A stretch of 50,517 nt of DNA. Origin: Planctomycetota bacterium (GTDB taxonomy: Bacteria > Planctomycetota > UBA1135 > GCA-002686595). Under the pieces are notes generated by a model. The model made no database searches. It worked only from the letters and a program-made list of their open reading frames with translations, and had not been told where the DNA came from. Made by a program: the position numbers and the translations under genes. Location: positions 1 to 50,517 of the forward strand of contig JAQWJQ010000131.1 in NCBI GenBank assembly GCA_029248265.1, written 5' to 3'. Position 1 is the stretch's first letter; every line of letters begins with the position of its first letter. This document shows, one piece after another, positions 1-43,913 of the stretch.

Positions 1-460
1 CGAGGGTGGCCACAATGGCCGCCTCCAGTTCGGGAGACGGTCTCCAGTCCTCGTCGACGCGCGGGTAGAGGACCTGTCCACCCTCGGCGAACTCCTCCTG
101 GAGGAGCGACATCCTCTGGACGAGGCGGAACCCCTCCTCGAAAGACACGCTCCCCGCGAGGCACAGCGCGATGTACCAACCCAGTGAGTTCCCCCCCACT
201 GCGACGACCTCGTGCTCCTGGCTGGCGGCCGTGGCGTCGATCATGGCCTTGACCAGGATCAGCGGCGACACGTGCGCGGGTCGAAGGTGCCGAGCGGGCT
301 CGAAGCGCTCCGCTCCATCGAGGGACAGGAGGGGCTCCAGCCCAAGGTCTCCTCGACACTGCTCCGCGATCCGTACGAACTCGTGGTCCGGATCCAGGGA
401 TCCGAGGGAGGCCTCCGTGTACGACCCGCGCCCGGGGCAGAGGATGACAGCGCGGCTCAC
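1..460 (-). CDS. ACP S-acyltransferase-like protein (FabD/AT fold), 3' end beyond window
   Basis: The 153 visible N-terminal residues look like the malonyl-CoA:ACP transacylase fold. There is an early glycine-rich loop C-P-G-R-G-S-Y (residues 8-14) and a nucleophile elbow G-G-N-S-L-G-W at 89-95, with Ser92 as predicted nucleophile; the usual form is G-H-S-L-G. The GTG start at 460 overlaps the stop of the upstream E1 fusion gene by 4 bases (GTGA), so the two are almost certainly co-translated. An acyltransferase coupled to a 2-oxoacid dehydrogenase suggests use of an acyl-CoA product in fatty-acid or polyketide-like synthesis, but that is inference. The catalytic His and the C-terminal half lie off the left edge, so substrate class cannot be judged. 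Confidence 0.75.
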   Translation of the reverse strand, partial: MSRAVILCPGRGSYTEASLGSLDPDHEFVRIAEQCRGDLGLEPLLSLDGAERFEPARHLRPAHVSPLILVKAMIDATAASQEHEVVAVGGNSLGWYIALCLAGSVSFEEGFRLVQRMSLLQEEFAEGGQVLYPRVDEDWRPSPELEAAIVATL

Positions 461-2697
461 GACACCACCTCCTTCGCGCCCGTGATGATGTCATCCTCGG
501 ACAAGAGGACGAGGTCCGCAGCGGGGCCGAGGGGGATGTAAGTGTCCGCGCTGCGAACGGTGCGCATCCGGCCGACGTAGCCGCGCTCGACGAGGCCGCT
601 GATGACCGAATCGGCGATACCAGCACCGGTCGCCCGACACTCGTCGGCCACCAACACGGCGCCGCATTCCTCGGCGTGGGTCAGGATCTCATCCATCGGC
701 AAGGGGTTGAGCCAACGCACATCCATGATCCTCGCCTTGATGCCCTGGGCCTCGAGCTGGCGCGCCGCTCGCAGCGCCAGCCTGAAGCCGTTGGCGTACG
801 TCACGATGAGCACGTCTCCGTTCTGCGGGTGAGCGATTCCAACATCACCGGGGAGCAAGGCCGAGTCAGGAGACCCGTCCGGTACCGGGTAGTCGCTCAG
901 CCACAAGCCGTCACCTTCCTCGTAGAGGTCCCGCATGTGGTAGAGCGCGATGGGCTCGAGGAAGACGACGACCCGGCCGGACTCCTGCGCCATGGCGAGC
1001 GACCCTCGCAGCATCCGCGCGGCGTCGGCCCCGTTGGACGGGCAGGCGATGGTGAGCCCAGGGATCTCTCGCAGGGCGCCGATGGAGTTGTCGTTGTGGA
1101 AGTGCCCGCCGAAGCCGCGCTGATAGGCCAGCCCAGCGATTCGGACGACCATCGGGTTCGCGAACTGCTTGTCGCTGAAGAACTGCAGGGAGCACGCCTC
1201 CCCGCGGATCTGATCGATGGCGTTGTGCAGATAGGCGAGGTAGGGGATCTCAGGCACGGGGAGCAGCCCCACCAACGACGCGCCCTGGGCGACCCCGAGG
1301 ATCGTCGTCTCATCAAGGAGCGTATCGAAGCAGCGCGACCGGCCGAATTGCGCCTGGAGGTTCTGGGTGATGCCGTACACCCCGCCCTTTCGACCGACGT
1401 CCTCGCCGAAGCAAATCATCCCCTGACGCCGGATCATCTCATCGTGCAGGGCATCGTTGATTCGAGCCCCAAGGGTCCGTCGGGTCGGGGCCTTCGCCTT
1501 CTCTGGGAGCCTCGCTCCGAAGATCGCGGCGCGCTCCTCCTCTGGGATCGCTGCGGTGGCCGCCTCCCTCCAGAGCACGGGGTCCTCGGGCGCGAGGGGC
1601 TCGACGACCTCGGCGGCGCTGGTGAGTCGGGGACGCTGGCGCGCCTCTTCTGAGCCGGCGCTGACGCGGGCTCGCGTCGTCCGAACAATCTCGCGCAGCT
1701 GCTCAGGGGTCGCCGCGCCGCACTCCACCAACCGACGGGCGTTGGTGAGCACAGGGTCACGGGCCTCGGCCTCCTCGATCTCGGCCTGTGACATGTAGGC
1801 GGACTGGACGTCGCTCCCCGCGTGGCCCCAGAGGCGGTGGCAGCGCAGGCGCAGGAACGTCGGCTGCCGGGTGGTTCGACAGGTCTGAATGGCCAGCGAG
1901 ACGGTGTCCCACATTTCCTCCAGCTCGCCCGACGCCTCGAAGTAGCGGAGGTGCTCCAGCCTCGAGAAGAAGTCTCGGATCCAACGGCGGGGCGTCTCGA
2001 CGCTGATTCCGCGCTGGTTGTCCTCGCAAACGAAGAGGACCGGAGTGGGGTTCATCCGCCGCCAGGCGTAGCGCGCAGAGTTGATGCCCGACAGCGCGGT
2101 GGCGTGGTTCACGCTCGCGTCGCCAAAGGTGCAACAGGTGATCGCGTCCTCGGGGAGCCCCGTCTCGATGCCGAGCTTGGCGGCGCGCCGGAGCGAGTAG
2201 GCCGCGCCCACTGCCTTCGGGATGTGGCTCGCGATCGTGCTCGTTTGGGGCGGGACCCAGGTCTCCTTCGAGCCCCATACCTTGTGCCGGCCCGATGACA
2301 CGGGGTCGTCCTTGGCGGCGCAGAAGCTGAGCAGGGTGTCGAAGAGCGGGGTGCCGTCGTCGACCTGCCGAAGACGCGAGGCCATGAAGGCGCCGGAGCG
2401 GTAGTGGAGGAACGTCGGATCGCTCGTGCGCAGCTGGGCGCCGACGATGGCGTTCTGTTCGTGCCCGGCGCTGCTGATGGTGTAGAAGCCCTCCCCATCA
2501 CGCTTGAGCTCGCGGGCCGCGACGTCGAGGCAACGGGAGAGGACCTGATCCTCCCAGAGCTGGACCGCGACGCGCGCGGTGAGCGTCGTCCCGACCCGGA
2601 GGGGTTCGTTCGGGTCGAGTCGCCTCGGGGCAGCCTCTGCAGATTCCAGGAAGGCGTCTAGATTCGCCTCCACCACTGCGACGCGGTTGGTGCTCAT
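457..2697 (-). CDS. Fused 2-oxoacid dehydrogenase E1 alpha-beta subunit (thiamine diphosphate dependent)
   Basis: This 746-residue protein joins both halves of a heterotetrameric E1. Residues about 40-330 are the alpha half, with the ThDP/Mg motif G-D-A-S-x-N at 192-197 and Asn227 further on. Residues about 400-740 are the beta half, with F-G-E-D-V-G-R-K-G-G-V-Y and the Q-I-R-G-E-A segment of transketolase-like pyrimidine domains, then a transketolase C-terminal domain. Family members decarboxylate pyruvate or branched-chain 2-oxoacids and pass the acyl group to lipoyl-E2. I cannot name the substrate; the overall look is nearer the branched-chain/acetoin type than homodimeric AceE. No E2 or E3 gene is in the window. 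A purine-rich ribosome site (AGGAG) precedes the ATG, and the acyltransferase gene follows with a 4-base overlap. Confidence 0.88.
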   Translation of the reverse strand: MSTNRVAVVEANLDAFLESAEAAPRRLDPNEPLRVGTTLTARVAVQLWEDQVLSRCLDVAARELKRDGEGFYTISSAGHEQNAIVGAQLRTSDPTFLHYRSGAFMASRLRQVDDGTPLFDTLLSFCAAKDDPVSSGRHKVWGSKETWVPPQTSTIASHIPKAVGAAYSLRRAAKLGIETGLPEDAITCCTFGDASVNHATALSGINSARYAWRRMNPTPVLFVCEDNQRGISVETPRRWIRDFFSRLEHLRYFEASGELEEMWDTVSLAIQTCRTTRQPTFLRLRCHRLWGHAGSDVQSAYMSQAEIEEAEARDPVLTNARRLVECGAATPEQLREIVRTTRARVSAGSEEARQRPRLTSAAEVVEPLAPEDPVLWREAATAAIPEEERAAIFGARLPEKAKAPTRRTLGARINDALHDEMIRRQGMICFGEDVGRKGGVYGITQNLQAQFGRSRCFDTLLDETTILGVAQGASLVGLLPVPEIPYLAYLHNAIDQIRGEACSLQFFSDKQFANPMVVRIAGLAYQRGFGGHFHNDNSIGALREIPGLTIACPSNGADAARMLRGSLAMAQESGRVVVFLEPIALYHMRDLYEEGDGLWLSDYPVPDGSPDSALLPGDVGIAHPQNGDVLIVTYANGFRLALRAARQLEAQGIKARIMDVRWLNPLPMDEILTHAEECGAVLVADECRATGAGIADSVISGLVERGYVGRMRTVRSADTYIPLGPAADLVLLSEDDIITGAKEVVS

Positions 2698-4673: not shown

Positions 4674-4825
4674 TAGGTCCCTTCCCGGGGACATGCTTGG
4701 TGCGTGCGACTGTGATCCCGAAGGATGACGGGCGCTGCGCCCCAGGCAGTTTCTATCACTCCTGTGCAAGGTATTTCGGCCACCACGGCCGGCCGGATGC
4801 AGGATCACGCGAGTCGACCAAAAAA

Positions 4826-4857
4826 AATGACCGGCGGTCTGAAGACCGCCGGTCATT
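4826..4857 (-). terminator. Rho-independent terminator of the fasciclin gene
   Basis: A perfect 14-base-pair stem (4826-4839 with 4844-4857, loop 4840-4843) is followed on the minus strand by a run of T residues. It begins about 20 bases after the fasciclin stop codon. This is the only textbook intrinsic terminator found in the window. Confidence 0.9.
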
Positions 4858-4877
4858 GGCTCGCAAAGGTCCGAGGC

Positions 4878-5828
4878 TCAGGGGAGGAGCACAGTGTCGA
4901 TCACGTGGATGACGCCGTTGGAGGCCTCGATGTCCGTGGCAACAATGTTGGCGTTGCCGACCTTGGCGCCGTCCTTGTTGATCGCGATCGCCAGCTCCGT
5001 GCCGCCGATGGTCGGCGCCTTGTCAAGCTTGGCCGCCTGGTCGGCGTAGACGCTCCCAGACACGATGTGATGCTTCAGGATGGCCGCGAGGCGGCCCTTG
5101 TTCTCGGGCTTAAGCAGCGTGGCGACGGTGCCTTCGGGCAGCTTGGCGAAGGCCTCATCCGTCGGTGCGAAGACCGTGAAGGGGCCACCCTTGGTGAGCG
5201 CATCCACGAGTCCAGCGGCCTTGGCGGCGGCGAGGAGCGTCCCGAAGGAGCCGGCCCCGCTGGCAACCTCGGCGAGGTTCTTCGACTGCGGGAGCATGAC
5301 GGTGTCGATCACGTGGATCACGCCGTTCGAGCACACGATGTCCGCTGTCACGACGGTCGCTCCGTCAATCGTCACGGTGCCTTCAACGATCGCGATGTCC
5401 AGGCGCTGCCCGTTCAGGGTGGTGGCCGTGGTGAGCTTGTTCTTGACGATCTGCTTGGAGCGGACGTCCCCGCCGACCACGTGGTACGTCAGGATTCCGG
5501 TCAGCGCGTCGCGGTTCTTCTCCTCGAGAAGTGACTCCACAGTGCCCTTCGGCAGCTTGGCGAAGGCCGCATCCGTCGGCGCAAAGACCGTGAACGGCCC
5601 CTCGCCCTGGAGCGCTCCGATGAGCTCGGCGCTCTTGAGGGCCGCGGCCAGCGTCTTGAAGCTCCCGGCCTTGACTGCCGTGGTGACAATGTCGTCGACG
5701 GCGTTGGCCGCGAGCGCGGCGCGCGGGGTCGAGCTGCAGGTCTGCGAGCAGGGGGCGTCGTCAGAACCAGTGGAGGCGAAGCTGGCGGCCGCGAGGGCGA
5801 AGCCGGTGAGGGCGAAGGTGAGTTTCAT
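4878..5828 (-). CDS. Secreted protein with two fasciclin (FAS1) domains
   Basis: The 316-residue product starts with a Sec signal peptide (charged start, hydrophobic stretch to about residue 20). Two FAS1 domains of about 130 residues follow. Both carry the signature F-T-V-F-A-P-T-D-x-A-F-A-K-L-P and end with [10 protein letters not shown]-x-L-P, the conserved H2 motif region. Bacterial FAS1 proteins act in adhesion or extracellular binding. The two copies are clearly alike, pointing to an internal duplication; FAS1 copies are commonly found in tandem. The gene stands alone, is divergent from the DUF6807 gene at 5982, and has a strong intrinsic terminator, which suggests good expression. Cysteines near residues 27 and 31 precede the first domain. 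No anchor is visible, so release or binding to the surface is possible. Confidence 0.93.
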
Positions 5829-5981
5829 GGCTTGTTCTTTAAGGCCTTGAGGAGGCCAGGCTTGGAGGCAAGATCAACGGACCGTCGGTCGGCCCGTATG
5901 GAGATCGAGTCGGGGGCATGGCGAGCGCCATCGCCGAGATTCCCGTCGACGCACAAGGTTTCGGGAGACAAACGGGCTCAG

Positions 5982-7007
5982 ATGCAGAGACAAGACGGCT
6001 TCACCAAACTCACACAACGAGCCAACGCGGCCAGGCTGCGACATCTTGGCCTGGCGCTGACGCTCGCGCTCGCCAGCGCCTGTCAGACCGCGGCGACGGG
6101 GCCGCCTCCTCGGGTCCTCTCTGCAAAGAGTCACCCCGAGGCTGTCACGATCTACGCCGGTCCGGATCTGTTCGCCGAGCTCCGGCTAGGGTTCGGGGAA
6201 CGCATGACGGTCAGCAGGCTACGCGCCTCGAACGGCGTCGACGTGCTGCGCGGGTTCCCCATGGAACCGCGCATCGGTGAGTCCGTCGACCATCCCGAGC
6301 AGACCGGGATCTGGGCAGCTCATGGAGGAATGAACGGAGACGACCTCTGGTACGGCACCGGCGGGGGTGTCGCGGACGAGCACACGCTCAGGATCGACAG
6401 CGACTCCGTCGCGACGCTGATCACCCAGGTCGAGTGGTCCAACGCCGCCGGGCATCGAATCTGCGAGGAGCAACGACGCGTCCGCTTCGAGATCTCTGAT
6501 GACCTGCACCTCGTGGACTTTGACCTGGCGCTCACGGCGTCCGCCGACGGGTTGGTGCTCGAGGACGTGAAGGAGGGCTTCTTCGCAGCCCGCCTCGCCG
6601 ACGACCTGCGATCCTCCGCGGGGGCTGAGACCTTTGGATCCACTGGCGCCAAGGGTGCCAGCCTCTGGGGCGAGCGCGCGAGATGGATCGCCTCCGCCAG
6701 CCCCACAGCGGGAGGCCGCGCGGCGACGGTCTGCATCTTCGAGGACCCGAGGAACCCTGGGCACCCCTCACGCTGGCAGGTCCGGCCCTACGGGCTCGTG
6801 GCAGCCAACCCCTTCGCAACCGGAGCCTTCACCGAGGACCCCCGAGACGACCAGCCCGCGATCATTGACAGCTACGGGAGCCTGCGCCTGCGTTACCGCG
6901 TCGTCATCGCGCCGCGAGTCCTGTCCTTCACAGAGGTGGACGCGCTCTGGGCGAGATTCGCCCAAACCGAACCATCCGGAGCCGCGCTCCCTAGTCACCG
7001 TCCGTGA
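5982..7007 (+). CDS. DUF6807 (PmoA-like) family lipoprotein
   Basis: The 341-residue product has an N-terminal hydrophobic stretch ending A-S-A-C (Cys34), a likely lipoprotein signal. The body shows the family hallmark D-H-P-E-Q-T-G-I-W-A-A-H-G-G-M-N-G (usual form D-H-P-H-H-x-G-x-x-x-x-H-G), then long beta-rich segments. This family was once labelled methane oxygenase PmoA, but it is unrelated to methane monooxygenase and is common in planctomycetes and Bacteroidetes near sugar-degrading enzymes; its true activity is unclear. The ATG at 5982 was chosen because it sits directly before the signal sequence. The last 17 bases overlap the end of the convergent BNR gene. Confidence 0.8.
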   Translation: MQRQDGFTKLTQRANAARLRHLGLALTLALASACQTAATGPPPRVLSAKSHPEAVTIYAGPDLFAELRLGFGERMTVSRLRASNGVDVLRGFPMEPRIGESVDHPEQTGIWAAHGGMNGDDLWYGTGGGVADEHTLRIDSDSVATLITQVEWSNAAGHRICEEQRRVRFEISDDLHLVDFDLALTASADGLVLEDVKEGFFAARLADDLRSSAGAETFGSTGAKGASLWGERARWIASASPTAGGRAATVCIFEDPRNPGHPSRWQVRPYGLVAANPFATGAFTEDPRDDQPAIIDSYGSLRLRYRVVIAPRVLSFTEVDALWARFAQTEPSGAALPSHRP

Positions 7008-39299: not shown

Positions 39300-42149
39300 C
39301 TAGTCCCCTGCCCCCTGGCCGAGCACCACAGCGTTCCCGAGGAGCCGCCCTGTGGAGCGCCAAGAGCCCCGATAGACGGGAGAAACGGCAAATGCGACGA
39401 CCTTGCCTTCACCGAGCGCCTCGGCCGTCAGCCACGCGCTATCTGCGATGCGGCCCCTGGCCTCGGGCCAGAGCAGCCCACCGAGCCGCAATCGATCCTC
39501 GGCCGCCAGCCGGATCGCGGGGCGCACCGAGCTCATCAGGACGCTGGAGCCTGAGAAGAGCACGGCCATCTCCTCCTGCCGCACGCCGACCGTGAGCCAT
39601 GAGTCCGGGTTGACCTCCGCCCGGAGGATCACCCCGGCGGGAGAGAAGCGCCGGCGCCAACGGTCTTGCTCCTCGGCGTCCGCAACCTCTTCCTCTTCAT
39701 CAGCTTCCGTCGAGTCCTCCTCTGCGACGACACGAACCTCCGGCTGTCCTTCGGTCGTTTCCGCCGGCGAGCCATAGAGGTCCTCGACATCCACCTCGAC
39801 GCGCATCGAGCCTCGCTCTCGCTCCGTGCGCCACGCGTACTCTTCCAGGTCCTCGAGGACGTCACGGCGGAGCCGGTTCGCGGACAGCCCGAGCTCCGGG
39901 TCCGCCAGCGCCAGGCTCGAGCTCCCGATGGTGATCAAGCAGCCCCCGGCACGCGTCCATCGGGCGAGCTCCTCCGCCTGTTCGCGGGCGAAGTCGCCAG
40001 CTCCCGGCGGCAGGATGAAGACGTTGTACTCGTCGAAGTCCACGCTCCCGGGCCGCTGTGCGTCCACCAGGGTGACGGGCATTCCCAGGTCCTCGTCCAG
40101 GTAGCGCCAGACGTGCCCGAAGTCCGTGGTCGAGACCGGCGAGTTCGACAGCAACGCCACGCGCGGCTGCTCGAGCAGCGAGAAGTGACCACCGCCAAGG
40201 TCCGGACCGTCCTCGACGGCCCTGCCGCTGACCACGGCGTAGACCACTGCCGACGACTCGAGCGCCGCCTGACGGACGAGCCCGTCGACGCCTTCGGGGT
40301 TCTCATGTCGCCGGAGCAGGAGTGATCCGCGGGGCATGGGGCGCCGCTCCGGTGCCCCCTTCGCTCCGCGCACCCGCGCCTCGAACTCGCGGTCCGAGAC
40401 GTGCACCTGGAGGCCGAGCTCCATGGCCCGGGCGGCGAAGCGCAACGAACGCCGGTCGTCACCATTCACGACCCACGCGTAGGCCCCGGCCAGGTCCCCG
40501 GCGGGTCCGGCGAGGGCCCGGACAGGGCCAGCCAGAGCGCTCTCCACGGCCGGCATTGAGGCCCAGTACCCCTCGACCCCCAGCTGGCGCCCGAGGCACC
40601 AAGCGGTGACGTCGTAGACCTTGGACCCCTTGCCTCGCTCGATGGACTCGCGCTCCTTCTGGAGGAAGTCTGCGTCGAGCCGAGGGTCAAACTCGAGGTA
40701 GGCCCGCATCATCGCGCCCTGCGGCTGCGCGGCCGGCACGATCCAGGTTCCCGCGGGGAACGAACGGCGGGGCTCGGGGTCACCGAGCGGCCCGGTGACC
40801 TCGGTCGCCTCGAAGGCCTCGGACGCAGCGAAGACCTCGATGCCCTGGGAGACCAGGGCTCGCATCAGCCTCGCGTCCACCTCCACATCTGCCGAGGGGA
40901 CCACGAGATACGCGCCCTTCCCTGGCTCGGCGACCGGCTCGCAGGCGGCCTCACGATGCGCCAGATAGTCGCGCAGGATCTCCTCACGGTTCGCCGCGAA
41001 GGTCTTGAGGTTTGCCAGGCTCGCCGCGACCTGGCCGTGAACGGTCTCGCGGTAGGAGACGATCTCCCCGGACTCGCGCCGCAGGGGCGCGCCAATGGTG
41101 CGCCCCTGCTCGTAGAGCATCCCGATCGCGCCGGTCAGGCTCCCCCAGGCGTCCGAGTAGCCAGGGTAGAGGGCGTCAGCCCACTCGCGCGTGTAGTACC
41201 CCCAGCCATAGCGATCGAAGACGCGCGCGGCGTCGTCCGCGAGGACTCCCTGCCAGTGGAGGAGGCGCTCAGGGAGGTGCGCGTTGCGAGGGGCGCTCTG
41301 CGGATAGAAGAGGAACGTGTCGAGCCCGCTCATCTCGTGGGCGTCCACGAAGAGCTGCGGCGGCAGATCGAGCAGGCGAGCCCAGCGCCCCCTCGTCTCC
41401 GGCGCCTCACCCGCCATCCAGTCCCGGTTCATGTCAAACAGGTAGTGGTTACCCCGCCCGTTCGGCCAGCGCCCACGCTGCATCGCGCCGCCGTCCAGGT
41501 TGGCCCGATAGCCCGCGCTCTGGAGCACCATGGAGCGGATGCGCTCACGACCGTCCGGGTTCAGGCACGGGTCCAGGACGACGACGGTCTCCTCGAGCAT
41601 CGAGGTGACCTCCTCGTCCGTGCACGCCGCGAGGTGGTAAGCCACCGGCAGCGCCGCCTCGGAGGCGGACGTCTCATCCCCGTGGATCCCGTAGCCCATC
41701 CAGGCGACCGCCGGCTGACCCTTGATCGCCGACGCGAGCGTGGGACCTGCCCCCCGCGGGTCCCAGAGGCGGCGCGCCGTCGCCCGGATCTCGTCCATGC
41801 GGCCCTGATTCCTCGGAGAGGTGATCACGAGGGTGACCAGCGGGCGGCCCTCGTAGGTCTGGCCGTATCGCTCCATGCTCACCCGGTCACTGGACGCCGC
41901 GATGGCCCGCAGGATGCGCAACATCTCGTCGTGACTCGCGAGGCGGCTCCCGACCGGCTGACCGAGGAAGTCCTCGGGCCTCGCGACCGACGAGTCGTAG
42001 CTGGCGCCAGGGAAGAAGGGCTCCGTCCACTGGTTGGCGGCGTCGTCACCGAGCCGGATCGGGGCGTGGCCCTTCAGGACCACGCCCTCCGGAGTCGTGC
42101 TCTGGGCGACCGTGAGCGCTGAGAGGAGGGCGATGGAGGCGACAAGCAT
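39300..42149 (-). CDS. Secreted M14 family zinc carboxypeptidase-like protein
   Basis: The 949-residue product has a signal peptide (M-L-V-A-S-I-A-L-L-S-A-L, cut near A-Q-S). The M14 domain follows at about 60-400: H156 and E159 in G-I-H-G-D-E, and H271 in V-D-A-H-E-M, are the predicted zinc ligands. N-P-D-G-R-E-R and F-D-M-N-R-D-W agree with the large-type M14 proteins of planctomycetes and Bacteroidetes. The remaining 500 residues are a beta-rich part with a glutamine amidotransferase-like fold (F-I-L-P-P-G-A-G-D-F). Near residue 820 there is an acidic low-complexity linker. ATG 42149 is favoured because a TACACT lies 39 bases upstream, and it starts a clean signal peptide; a GTG at 42206 lies upstream of this promoter. 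Confidence 0.9.
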   Translation of the reverse strand: MLVASIALLSALTVAQSTTPEGVVLKGHAPIRLGDDAANQWTEPFFPGASYDSSVARPEDFLGQPVGSRLASHDEMLRILRAIAASSDRVSMERYGQTYEGRPLVTLVITSPRNQGRMDEIRATARRLWDPRGAGPTLASAIKGQPAVAWMGYGIHGDETSASEAALPVAYHLAACTDEEVTSMLEETVVVLDPCLNPDGRERIRSMVLQSAGYRANLDGGAMQRGRWPNGRGNHYLFDMNRDWMAGEAPETRGRWARLLDLPPQLFVDAHEMSGLDTFLFYPQSAPRNAHLPERLLHWQGVLADDAARVFDRYGWGYYTREWADALYPGYSDAWGSLTGAIGMLYEQGRTIGAPLRRESGEIVSYRETVHGQVAASLANLKTFAANREEILRDYLAHREAACEPVAEPGKGAYLVVPSADVEVDARLMRALVSQGIEVFAASEAFEATEVTGPLGDPEPRRSFPAGTWIVPAAQPQGAMMRAYLEFDPRLDADFLQKERESIERGKGSKVYDVTAWCLGRQLGVEGYWASMPAVESALAGPVRALAGPAGDLAGAYAWVVNGDDRRSLRFAARAMELGLQVHVSDREFEARVRGAKGAPERRPMPRGSLLLRRHENPEGVDGLVRQAALESSAVVYAVVSGRAVEDGPDLGGGHFSLLEQPRVALLSNSPVSTTDFGHVWRYLDEDLGMPVTLVDAQRPGSVDFDEYNVFILPPGAGDFAREQAEELARWTRAGGCLITIGSSSLALADPELGLSANRLRRDVLEDLEEYAWRTERERGSMRVEVDVEDLYGSPAETTEGQPEVRVVAEEDSTEADEEEEVADAEEQDRWRRRFSPAGVILRAEVNPDSWLTVGVRQEEMAVLFSGSSVLMSSVRPAIRLAAEDRLRLGGLLWPEARGRIADSAWLTAEALGEGKVVAFAVSPVYRGSWRSTGRLLGNAVVLGQGAGD

Positions 42150-42188
42150 GGCTCGGAGGGCGGAGGACCTGAGGAAGAGAACGCAGCG

Positions 42189-42194
42189 AGTGTA
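42189..42194 (-). promoter_or_regulatory. Candidate -10 element for the M14 peptidase gene
   Basis: TACACT on the minus strand gives a leader of about 32 bases to the ATG at 42149. It would exclude the longer start at 42206. Confidence 0.4.
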
Positions 42195-42233
42195 TCGCGC
42201 CCGCACGGCGGACTCGGCAAGCTCTGGAAGCCG

Positions 42234-43913
42234 ATGAAGGACCCCTTTGCACCCGCTGGCGCCCTACGCCTCAAGCCCGTGGATGTGGTCGGCTACCCCG
42301 CCCCCCTGGACCTCCGAAAGGGGCCTGGTGAGGGCGAAGGCGCCTTCCTGACCGTCGGACGGGCAGAGGACAACGACCTCGCGCTGGTGGACGGTCGCTA
42401 CCCGTCCGTGTCGAGCCACCACTGTCGGTTCGAGCGTCAGGGTGAGCAGCTATCGGTCACCGACCTCGGCTCCAGCAACGGCACGCTCGTGAACGGGGAG
42501 CCCATCGAGGGCCCCGCGGTCCTCGCCATAGGGGACGTCGTGCGGCTCGGGAGCGTGGGACCGAAGCTCCTCGTGGTAGGTGCCCAAGACCTCAACGACA
42601 CGGTCTTCGTCCACCGAGAACAGCTGCGCCCCGACGCAGACGCGGTCGAGGAGATCGTCGAGCGCAGCAAGCGCGGCAGCCGCCGACGCCTCCTCCTCTT
42701 TGTGACGCTGCTCGTGTGCGCGGCAGGCTGGTTCACGTGGGAGTCGCGGCGCAGCGCGAGCCACATGAAGAGCGACCTCGACGCCCGCTCGCTCGCCTAC
42801 GAACAGCGCCTGACCGACGCCTACGCCCAGATCTCGGCGCTGGACCAGCGAGAGCGGAGGCGCGCGCGTGAGGAGCTCGACCGCTCCGAGGCGCGGCTCG
42901 CCACGCTCCGCTCGCTCGAGGGCGAGCTGGTGCGAAGCGCGCAGACCTTGGAGGCCTCGGTCAAGCTCCGCGCCGCCGAAGAGGCTCGGCTGCGGGCCCG
43001 CGTCCTGGAGCTTGAACGCACAGGGGGAGAGACGGGGCTGCTGGAGCGGGTCGCGCGCGACCTCGAGACCGCGCGCGTAGACCTCGATGCCACGCGCAGG
43101 GAGCTGCGAGAGGCTCGCCAGAAAGTCGACCTCCTCGACCCGGTCAACCTCGCGCAAGCCCGCGTGAGCGGCGTCGCCGACGTCCGCCGGTCCGTGGTGC
43201 TGATCGAGAACAAGACCCGCATTCGGAACGTGGAGAGCGGCCAGTTGCTGTTCCTCGACGGGAAGGGGCCGGCAGCAGAGCCGAACTTTGACGGGCGAGG
43301 CAGCGAGTTCGTGCTCGAGTCCACCGGGTCTGGCTTCTGCGTGGACGACGGGGGGTGGATCTTGACCAACGCCCACGTGGTCAGCCCGCCCGAGAACGAG
43401 CTCCTGCGGGCCATCCGCGGCACGCCCTTGCTCGAGCAGGTCGTGGAGTTGACGGTCGTGTTCTCGGACGAGTCCGCCCAGCACGCGGCCCGAGTCCACT
43501 CCACCAGCGACAGAGGCGTCGACCTCGCCCTGCTGAAGATCGCCCCCTTCGCAGGGATGCCTGCGCTCGAGGAGTTCGCGACCGACGTCGCCTTGCCGCC
43601 GCCCGGCAGCGACATCTTCCTCCTCGGCTTCCCCCTGGGCTTCCTGGCCGTACAGGACGGCGAGACCGTCATCTCGTCGGTCTTCCGCGGCATCCTCTCC
43701 CGCAAGGTCGGGGACCAGATCCAGGTGGACGCTGGGGTGCACCCGGGGAACAGCGGCGGACCGATCACGGACTCCACTGGGCAGGTGGTCGGCATCGTCG
43801 TCAGCGTCCAGGCGCTGCCGGACCAGACGGCGGTCTACACCATCGGCTACGGGATCCCCATCGCCCTCGCCGGTGAACTCTGGCCCCCCCTCCTCCCCGG
43901 CGAGTCCGACTGA
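42234..43913 (+). CDS. FHA domain, transmembrane, coiled-coil and trypsin-like protease fusion
   Basis: The 559-residue product has four parts. An FHA domain at about 37-105 shows V-G-R-A-E-D-N-D, S-S-H-H-C-R-F, and D-L-G-S-S-N-G-T. A single membrane helix spans about 152-168 after an Arg-rich stretch. A long coiled coil follows (about 175-300). The C-terminal part (about 355-555) is a trypsin/HtrA-like protease with His381 in T-N-A-H-V-V, Asp430 in V-D-L-A-L-L-K and Ser507 in G-N-S-G-G-P. By topology the FHA domain is in the cytoplasm and the protease outside. FHA binds phosphothreonine, so a kinase signal may be linked to periplasmic proteolysis. No PDZ domain is present. It is followed by birA after 10 bases. 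Confidence 0.9.
   Translation: MKDPFAPAGALRLKPVDVVGYPAPLDLRKGPGEGEGAFLTVGRAEDNDLALVDGRYPSVSSHHCRFERQGEQLSVTDLGSSNGTLVNGEPIEGPAVLAIGDVVRLGSVGPKLLVVGAQDLNDTVFVHREQLRPDADAVEEIVERSKRGSRRRLLLFVTLLVCAAGWFTWESRRSASHMKSDLDARSLAYEQRLTDAYAQISALDQRERRRAREELDRSEARLATLRSLEGELVRSAQTLEASVKLRAAEEARLRARVLELERTGGETGLLERVARDLETARVDLDATRRELREARQKVDLLDPVNLAQARVSGVADVRRSVVLIENKTRIRNVESGQLLFLDGKGPAAEPNFDGRGSEFVLESTGSGFCVDDGGWILTNAHVVSPPENELLRAIRGTPLLEQVVELTVVFSDESAQHAARVHSTSDRGVDLALLKIAPFAGMPALEEFATDVALPPPGSDIFLLGFPLGFLAVQDGETVISSVFRGILSRKVGDQIQVDAGVHPGNSGGPITDSTGQVVGIVVSVQALPDQTAVYTIGYGIPIALAGELWPPLLPGESD

Follow-up and report, generated by a model that had tools for sequence, protein, structure and literature searches.

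In the present study we describe a planctomycete gene whose product, hereafter the FHA-protease, joins in one chain an FHA domain, a single membrane helix, a long helical stalk and an HtrA-type protease, and whose linker beside the FHA domain carries a threonine, Thr123, that is invariant among its relatives. The gene lies in a window (the whole stretch of DNA that was analysed) of 50,517 nucleotides. Our preferred reading, held with a little less than even confidence, is that the protein forms a stalked HtrA trimer, with its assembly set inside the cell by FHA-phosphothreonine binding, probably to phosphorylated Thr123 (pThr123) of neighbouring chains. The fuller picture of an inside-to-outside switch, in which a kinase-phosphorylated juxtamembrane threonine would let FHA domains cross-link trimeric stalked proteases and turn envelope proteolysis on or off, by a logic like the phospho-polymerisation of TIFA, seems to us possible though rather unlikely.

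The order FHA domain, one membrane helix, stalk and protease, first given in a preliminary description of this DNA, emerged alike from the open reading frame, the Pfam matches, hydropathy and an AlphaFold2 model built on 16 sequences (Table 1). The FHA match reached 66.4 bits against a Pfam cut-off of 20.7, Trypsin_2 was matched at residues 365-521 (E 3e-24, well over its cut-off), and the N-terminus MKDPFAP is conserved in the alignment. In the model, a helix at 135-263 and a second at 267-299, separated by a break at about 264-266, precede the HtrA-like protease. The intact triad H381/D430/S507 is exactly as had been claimed, its invariance being judged on a 16-row alignment.

Table 1. Coordinates of the FHA-protease gene and its parts in the window
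Feature	Position	Strand	Description and evidence
FHA-protease ORF	42234..43913	+	559 aa; FHA, membrane helix, helical stalk, HtrA-type protease; Pfam
FHA domain, residues 40-106	42351..42551	+	Pfam E 3e-18; genome search E 5.8e-19
FHA-to-membrane linker, residues 117-136, low-confidence	42582..42641	+	pLDDT <50 at 118-136
Thr123, candidate phosphosite and FHA self-ligand	42600..42602	+	32/32 Thr; motif L-x-(D/E)-T-(V/M/L)-F-V
One membrane helix, a signal anchor, residues ~153-169	42690..42740	+	Hydropathy, positive-inside bias
Helical stalk, residues 172-299, ~128 residues	42747..43130	+	AlphaFold2 helices; heptad-spaced conserved hydrophobic columns
RhxxhE trimerisation motif RVLELE, residues 256-261	42999..43016	+	Strict-motif count vs shuffling
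Junction DPVNLxQARxxxVxxVRRxVV, residues 302-320, HtrA-like fold start	43137..43193	+	Alignment; Do-family NCBIfam profile
HtrA/Deg-type protease domain, no PDZ	43326..43892	+	Pfam Trypsin_2; Foldseek best match DegS 4rqz
Catalytic His381	43374..43376	+	Invariant in alignment
Catalytic Asp430	43521..43523	+	Invariant in alignment
Catalytic Ser507	43752..43754	+	Invariant in alignment

Sequence search recovered 28 family loci from named genomes, mostly Planctomycetota MAGs, after which the E values drop sharply from 2e-58 to 3e-16, the lower matches being HtrA-type loci without an FHA match; the fusion is thus not a product of chance. A family member also occurs in Planctomycetes bacterium Poly30 (Saltatorellus ferox; CP036434.1), a cultured relative whose genome is closed and which is placed in the window's genus. 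Since about 18 of 392 planctomycete genomes, drawn evenly from the phylum, had a strong match (below 1e-60), and these fell in scattered families, the gene is widespread but patchy. It is single-copy in the window's genome, and no relatives were found in viral contigs. The domain order recurs across the phylum, and 32 planctomycete proteins were aligned for the analyses of FHA contacts, Thr123, charge bias and distal stalk. In a maximum-likelihood tree, the 15 rows that share the gene order of the window form a clade (support 100/99) set against the rest.

Hydropathy revealed one hydrophobic segment in the window protein (residues 153-171) and no second one. Over the 32 proteins, the 15 residues that precede the helix hold on average 4.2 Lys and Arg and the 15 that follow it 2.5, with net charges of +2.2 and -0.75, respectively, and the bias was reversed in none. 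By the positive-inside rule, this K/R bias places the FHA domain in the cytoplasm and the protease outside, so that the end domains, as proposed, lie on opposite sides of the membrane; a same-side arrangement was looked for and not seen. As judged from sequence, this is a single-pass protein with its N-terminus in and its C-terminus out, and the "periplasmic" location of the protease is to be read as a topology bias.

The suggestion that the FHA domain binds phosphothreonine also withstood inspection of its contacts, none of which is lost: the phosphothreonine-contact residues R43, S60 and N82, together with G42, H63 and S80, are invariant in all 32 aligned proteins. Thr123 lies eight residues past the last FHA strand, within a stretch of pLDDT <50 in the AlphaFold2 model. 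Threonine occupies this position in every aligned protein and serine in none; the adjacent positions vary. In 30/32 proteins a hydrophobic residue fills +3 (T-V-F-V in the window), and 21/32 have Asp or Glu at -1. Among about 27 other FHA domains from the same and related genomes, no threonine fixed at this position was found, which sets Thr123 outside the general FHA fold; several of them have threonine motifs close by or further along. From this pattern we infer that Thr123 is a candidate phosphosite read by the FHA domain; it could also have a structural role that the 16-sequence model missed. Separately, FHA-GAF type proteins encoded in the same genomes (L152, L158, L159 and L164) have a conserved threonine after the FHA domain (ATMTGE, SETLTG), and juxta-FHA threonine motifs may be common in genomes that carry an FHA-protease.

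The FHA domain of DgcB has the phosphorylated tail of the same protein as its ligand, with the +3 residue V17 crucial for recognition, and the tails of GarA and OdhI are cited as parallels (PMC6733907). The FHA-protease resembles these proteins in its intact FHA domain, conserved nearby threonine, low-confidence segment and hydrophobic +3 residue; however, their threonine tail is N-terminal and their output a cyclase or a metabolic enzyme, whereas here the candidate self-ligand is C-terminal to the FHA domain and is followed by a membrane helix and a protease. Dimers of the animal FHA adaptor TIFA oligomerise when a phosphothreonine on one is bound by an FHA domain of the next (PMC7083832). 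The logic proposed here is similar, in that a phosphothreonine beside the FHA domain would bind other chains, but TIFA is an adaptor, an intrinsic dimer instead of a trimer, and has no enzyme, and we claim homology for the FHA domain only. The termini and the ligand loops of FHA domains lie at opposite ends of the domain, which makes binding of pThr123 between chains likelier than within one chain.

The coiled coil of about 125 residues put forward earlier survives as a long helical stalk, with the break near 264-266 and with weak periodicity, since the Fourier analysis of hydrophobicity gave weak or no signal for individual stalks; the coiled-coil call therefore rests on the helix model and on conserved hydrophobic columns at 239/253/260 and 284/291/298, in exact heptad spacing. 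Stalk conservation peaks at the invariant L253 and the R256-V-L-E-L-E261 that follows, where R256, L260 and E261 are among the best-conserved stalk positions (R256 is substituted in 9/32 proteins). The strict RhxxhE motif was present in 17 of 28 proteins vs 2.8 expected from shuffling, and in each of the 17 a copy lies 30-46 residues ahead of the DPV anchor; the 11 proteins in which it is absent belong mostly to the second clade. RhxxhE is a hallmark of parallel trimeric coiled coils (PMC5940361), and HtrA cores form trimers (PMC4481513). The motif in the stalk is suggestive of a trimeric core, and the FHA-protease is likely a trimer, although the weak periodicity of individual stalks and the lack of the strict motif in most second-clade proteins speak against this.

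The distance from E261 to D302, spanning the distal stalk, was 41, 34/35 or 28 residues in 30/32 proteins. Because lengths there mostly change by whole heptads, the distal stalk looks register-dependent; the length of the membrane-proximal stalk varies freely. A phase-locked stalk was consequently rejected for the membrane-proximal part, which lacks heptad steps, and kept for the distal part. The earlier alternative between a signal rod and a spacer is thus divided along the stalk, with free length next to the membrane and apparent dependence on register next to the protease.

As for the protease, described beforehand as trypsin-like, the triad and the Trypsin_2 match uphold the fold class, but the domain is HtrA/Deg-like and not a digestive trypsin, and it comes without PDZ. 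Its best PDB matches in sequence and fold were DegS, DegP, HtrA1 and plant Deg proteases. With members of the HtrA/Deg group (S1C), and with DegS above all, a membrane-anchored stress sensor, it shares an H-D-S trypsin-like core outside the membrane behind one N-terminal membrane helix; in contrast, an FHA domain replaces the short cytoplasmic tail, a stalk of ~128 residues is present, and no PDZ was found by Pfam scan, the chain ending just past the protease. The Do-family profile TIGR02037 scored 74.9 bits against a cut-off of 416, and the cut-offs of all NCBIfam HtrA profiles exceed the scores of the FHA-protease. Given the absent PDZ, the FHA-protease is not a canonical HtrA, and canonical DegS membership was rejected on this absence and on the NCBIfam scores under cut-off. 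MarP was likewise rejected, as there is one hydrophobic segment instead of several and the NCBIfam MarP score is 47.9 bits vs 250. Nevertheless, the HtrA N-terminal helix seems to be kept, as the Do-family profile aligns from residue 314, and the protease should work like an HtrA core. HtrA3 stays active when its PDZ is missing (PMC4481513).

Under the preferred reading, three chains would probably associate through the HtrA protease core and the RhxxhE motif of the stalk, which would leave three cytoplasmic FHA domains hanging beneath one trimeric protease outside. A Ser/Thr kinase would phosphorylate Thr123 beside the FHA domain, and the FHA domain of, most likely, a neighbouring chain or trimer would bind pThr123, as in TIFA or DgcB. 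This binding would cross-link or cluster trimers, or release them if it is inhibitory, and the change in assembly, passing through the distal stalk, would alter where or how strongly envelope proteins are cut; control of proteolysis might thus run in either direction.

The expectation that planctomycetes are rich in Ser/Thr kinases is borne out by the window's genome, with 16 such kinases over cut-off and 4 FHA domains. Of the 16 loci that lie outside the window's clade, four (L051, L061, L052 and L053) have a Ser/Thr kinase as the adjacent gene, that of L053 bearing a dCache sensor domain. No adjacent kinase gene was found in the 15 window-clade loci, and in the window the FHA-protease is flanked by housekeeping genes and an M14 peptidase gene. 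Adjacent kinases were also absent from four further loci outside this clade, L140-L142 and L145, of which L140 and L141 are truncated by the ends of their contigs and L145 has a kinase ~3 kb upstream. The four kinase-adjacent genomes, of 4-9 Mb, hold 30-119 kinase matches each, and with kinases estimated at roughly 1-2% of genes, less than one kinase neighbour would be expected among 16 loci. The adjacency, which was spotted after the fact and in which two of the four loci are related, is no more than suggestive.

This adjacency also fits a protein in which the FHA domain only positions a constitutively active protease. The domain would dock on phosphothreonines carried by a partner, for instance a membrane Ser/Thr kinase or the substrates of that kinase, and control would be by place instead of activity. 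The lack of PDZ or any other regulatory domain behind the protease, the activity of PDZ-less HtrA3 and the free, spacer-like length of the membrane-proximal stalk agree with such a tether, yet it leaves unexplained both why a threonine in the protein's own linker should be invariant and why the distal stalk should change mostly by heptad steps, and we regard it as unlikely, if still a serious candidate. It is decidedly improbable that the FHA domain reads the phosphothreonine of another protein, changing protease assembly, while Thr123 has a structural or other role: the intact FHA contacts and the many kinases, hence many potential ligands, would suit this explanation, but a threonine that none of the 32 diverged proteins replaces by Ser or Val, and that has a hydrophobic +3 in 30 of them, exceeds the usual structural need, and FHA proteins elsewhere in these and related genomes do without a threonine fixed there. 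A signal from outside to inside, with the protease, or the stalk after self-cleavage, sensing envelope stress and the FHA domain relaying it inward in the manner of DegS, is very improbable, since, for all that DegS is the nearest solved fold, the PDZ peptide sensor is absent, no anti-sigma or sigma gene was recognised among the neighbours examined, and an FHA domain is a reader, not a writer.

HtrA proteases are usually regarded as controlled from the side of the membrane on which they cleave, through PDZ ligands, temperature or assembly, and the kinase sets of planctomycetes are large and mostly unexplained. If the preferred reading is true, cytoplasmic threonine phosphorylation that steers a protease would link these kinase sets to a concrete envelope output. 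An FHA-trypsin fusion as such is not new, because a 2008 survey lists one FHA-FHA-trypsin protein, NP_811686.1 of Bacteroides thetaiotaomicron, which likewise has FHA N-terminal to trypsin in one chain, but with two FHA domains and, in the survey's description, through which alone the two are compared, no mention of a membrane helix or stalk (PMC2605481). Our literature search found no publication on a planctomycete FHA-protease, nor, as far as it shows, has earlier work described the stalked form that spans the membrane, the fact that planctomycetes conserve it, the invariance of Thr123 or the trimer motif.

In the window's clade, the gene order 37562 gene (-), M14 peptidase (-), FHA-protease (+), birA, rph, rdgB and lepA is widely kept. 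As birA starts 10 bases past the stop codon of the FHA-protease, co-transcription with housekeeping genes is likely, and this linkage says little about the function of the FHA-protease. The divergent neighbour (39300-42206, -) encodes an M14 carboxypeptidase-like protein of 968 aa, and since the start codons lie ~27 bases apart, both genes probably share a promoter region. The conserved gene from 37562 to about 39100 (-), two genes off, stays where the M14 peptidase is missing (L045-L047); its product has a helical body and an alpha/beta C-terminal part in a folded model. Pfam and NCBIfam gave no match over cut-off for it, and a fold search gave none at E 0.001.

Among the loci outside this clade, L051:7989-11229 holds a tandem FHA-protease pair, flanked upstream by a divergent gene for a TPR-bearing Ser/Thr kinase and downstream by one for an M56 (BlaR1-like) peptidase, and L053:2779-8430 holds an FHA-protease, the convergent dCache-Ser/Thr kinase and then an FHA-EAL protein, a compact cluster that brings together a kinase, FHA readers and, possibly, turnover of cyclic-di-GMP. 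A conserved gene of ~465 aa, with no Pfam or NCBIfam match in the copies searched, lies directly downstream of the FHA-protease in L140:4616-6007 (-), L141:about 4790-6060 (-) and L145:7679-9109 (+); only these three loci share a downstream gene, and the idea of a partner kept there throughout the second clade was rejected. Elsewhere in the window, the ORF at 457-2697 (-), of 746 aa, looks from its translation like a single-chain fusion of the E1 alpha and beta subunits of a 2-oxoacid dehydrogenase.
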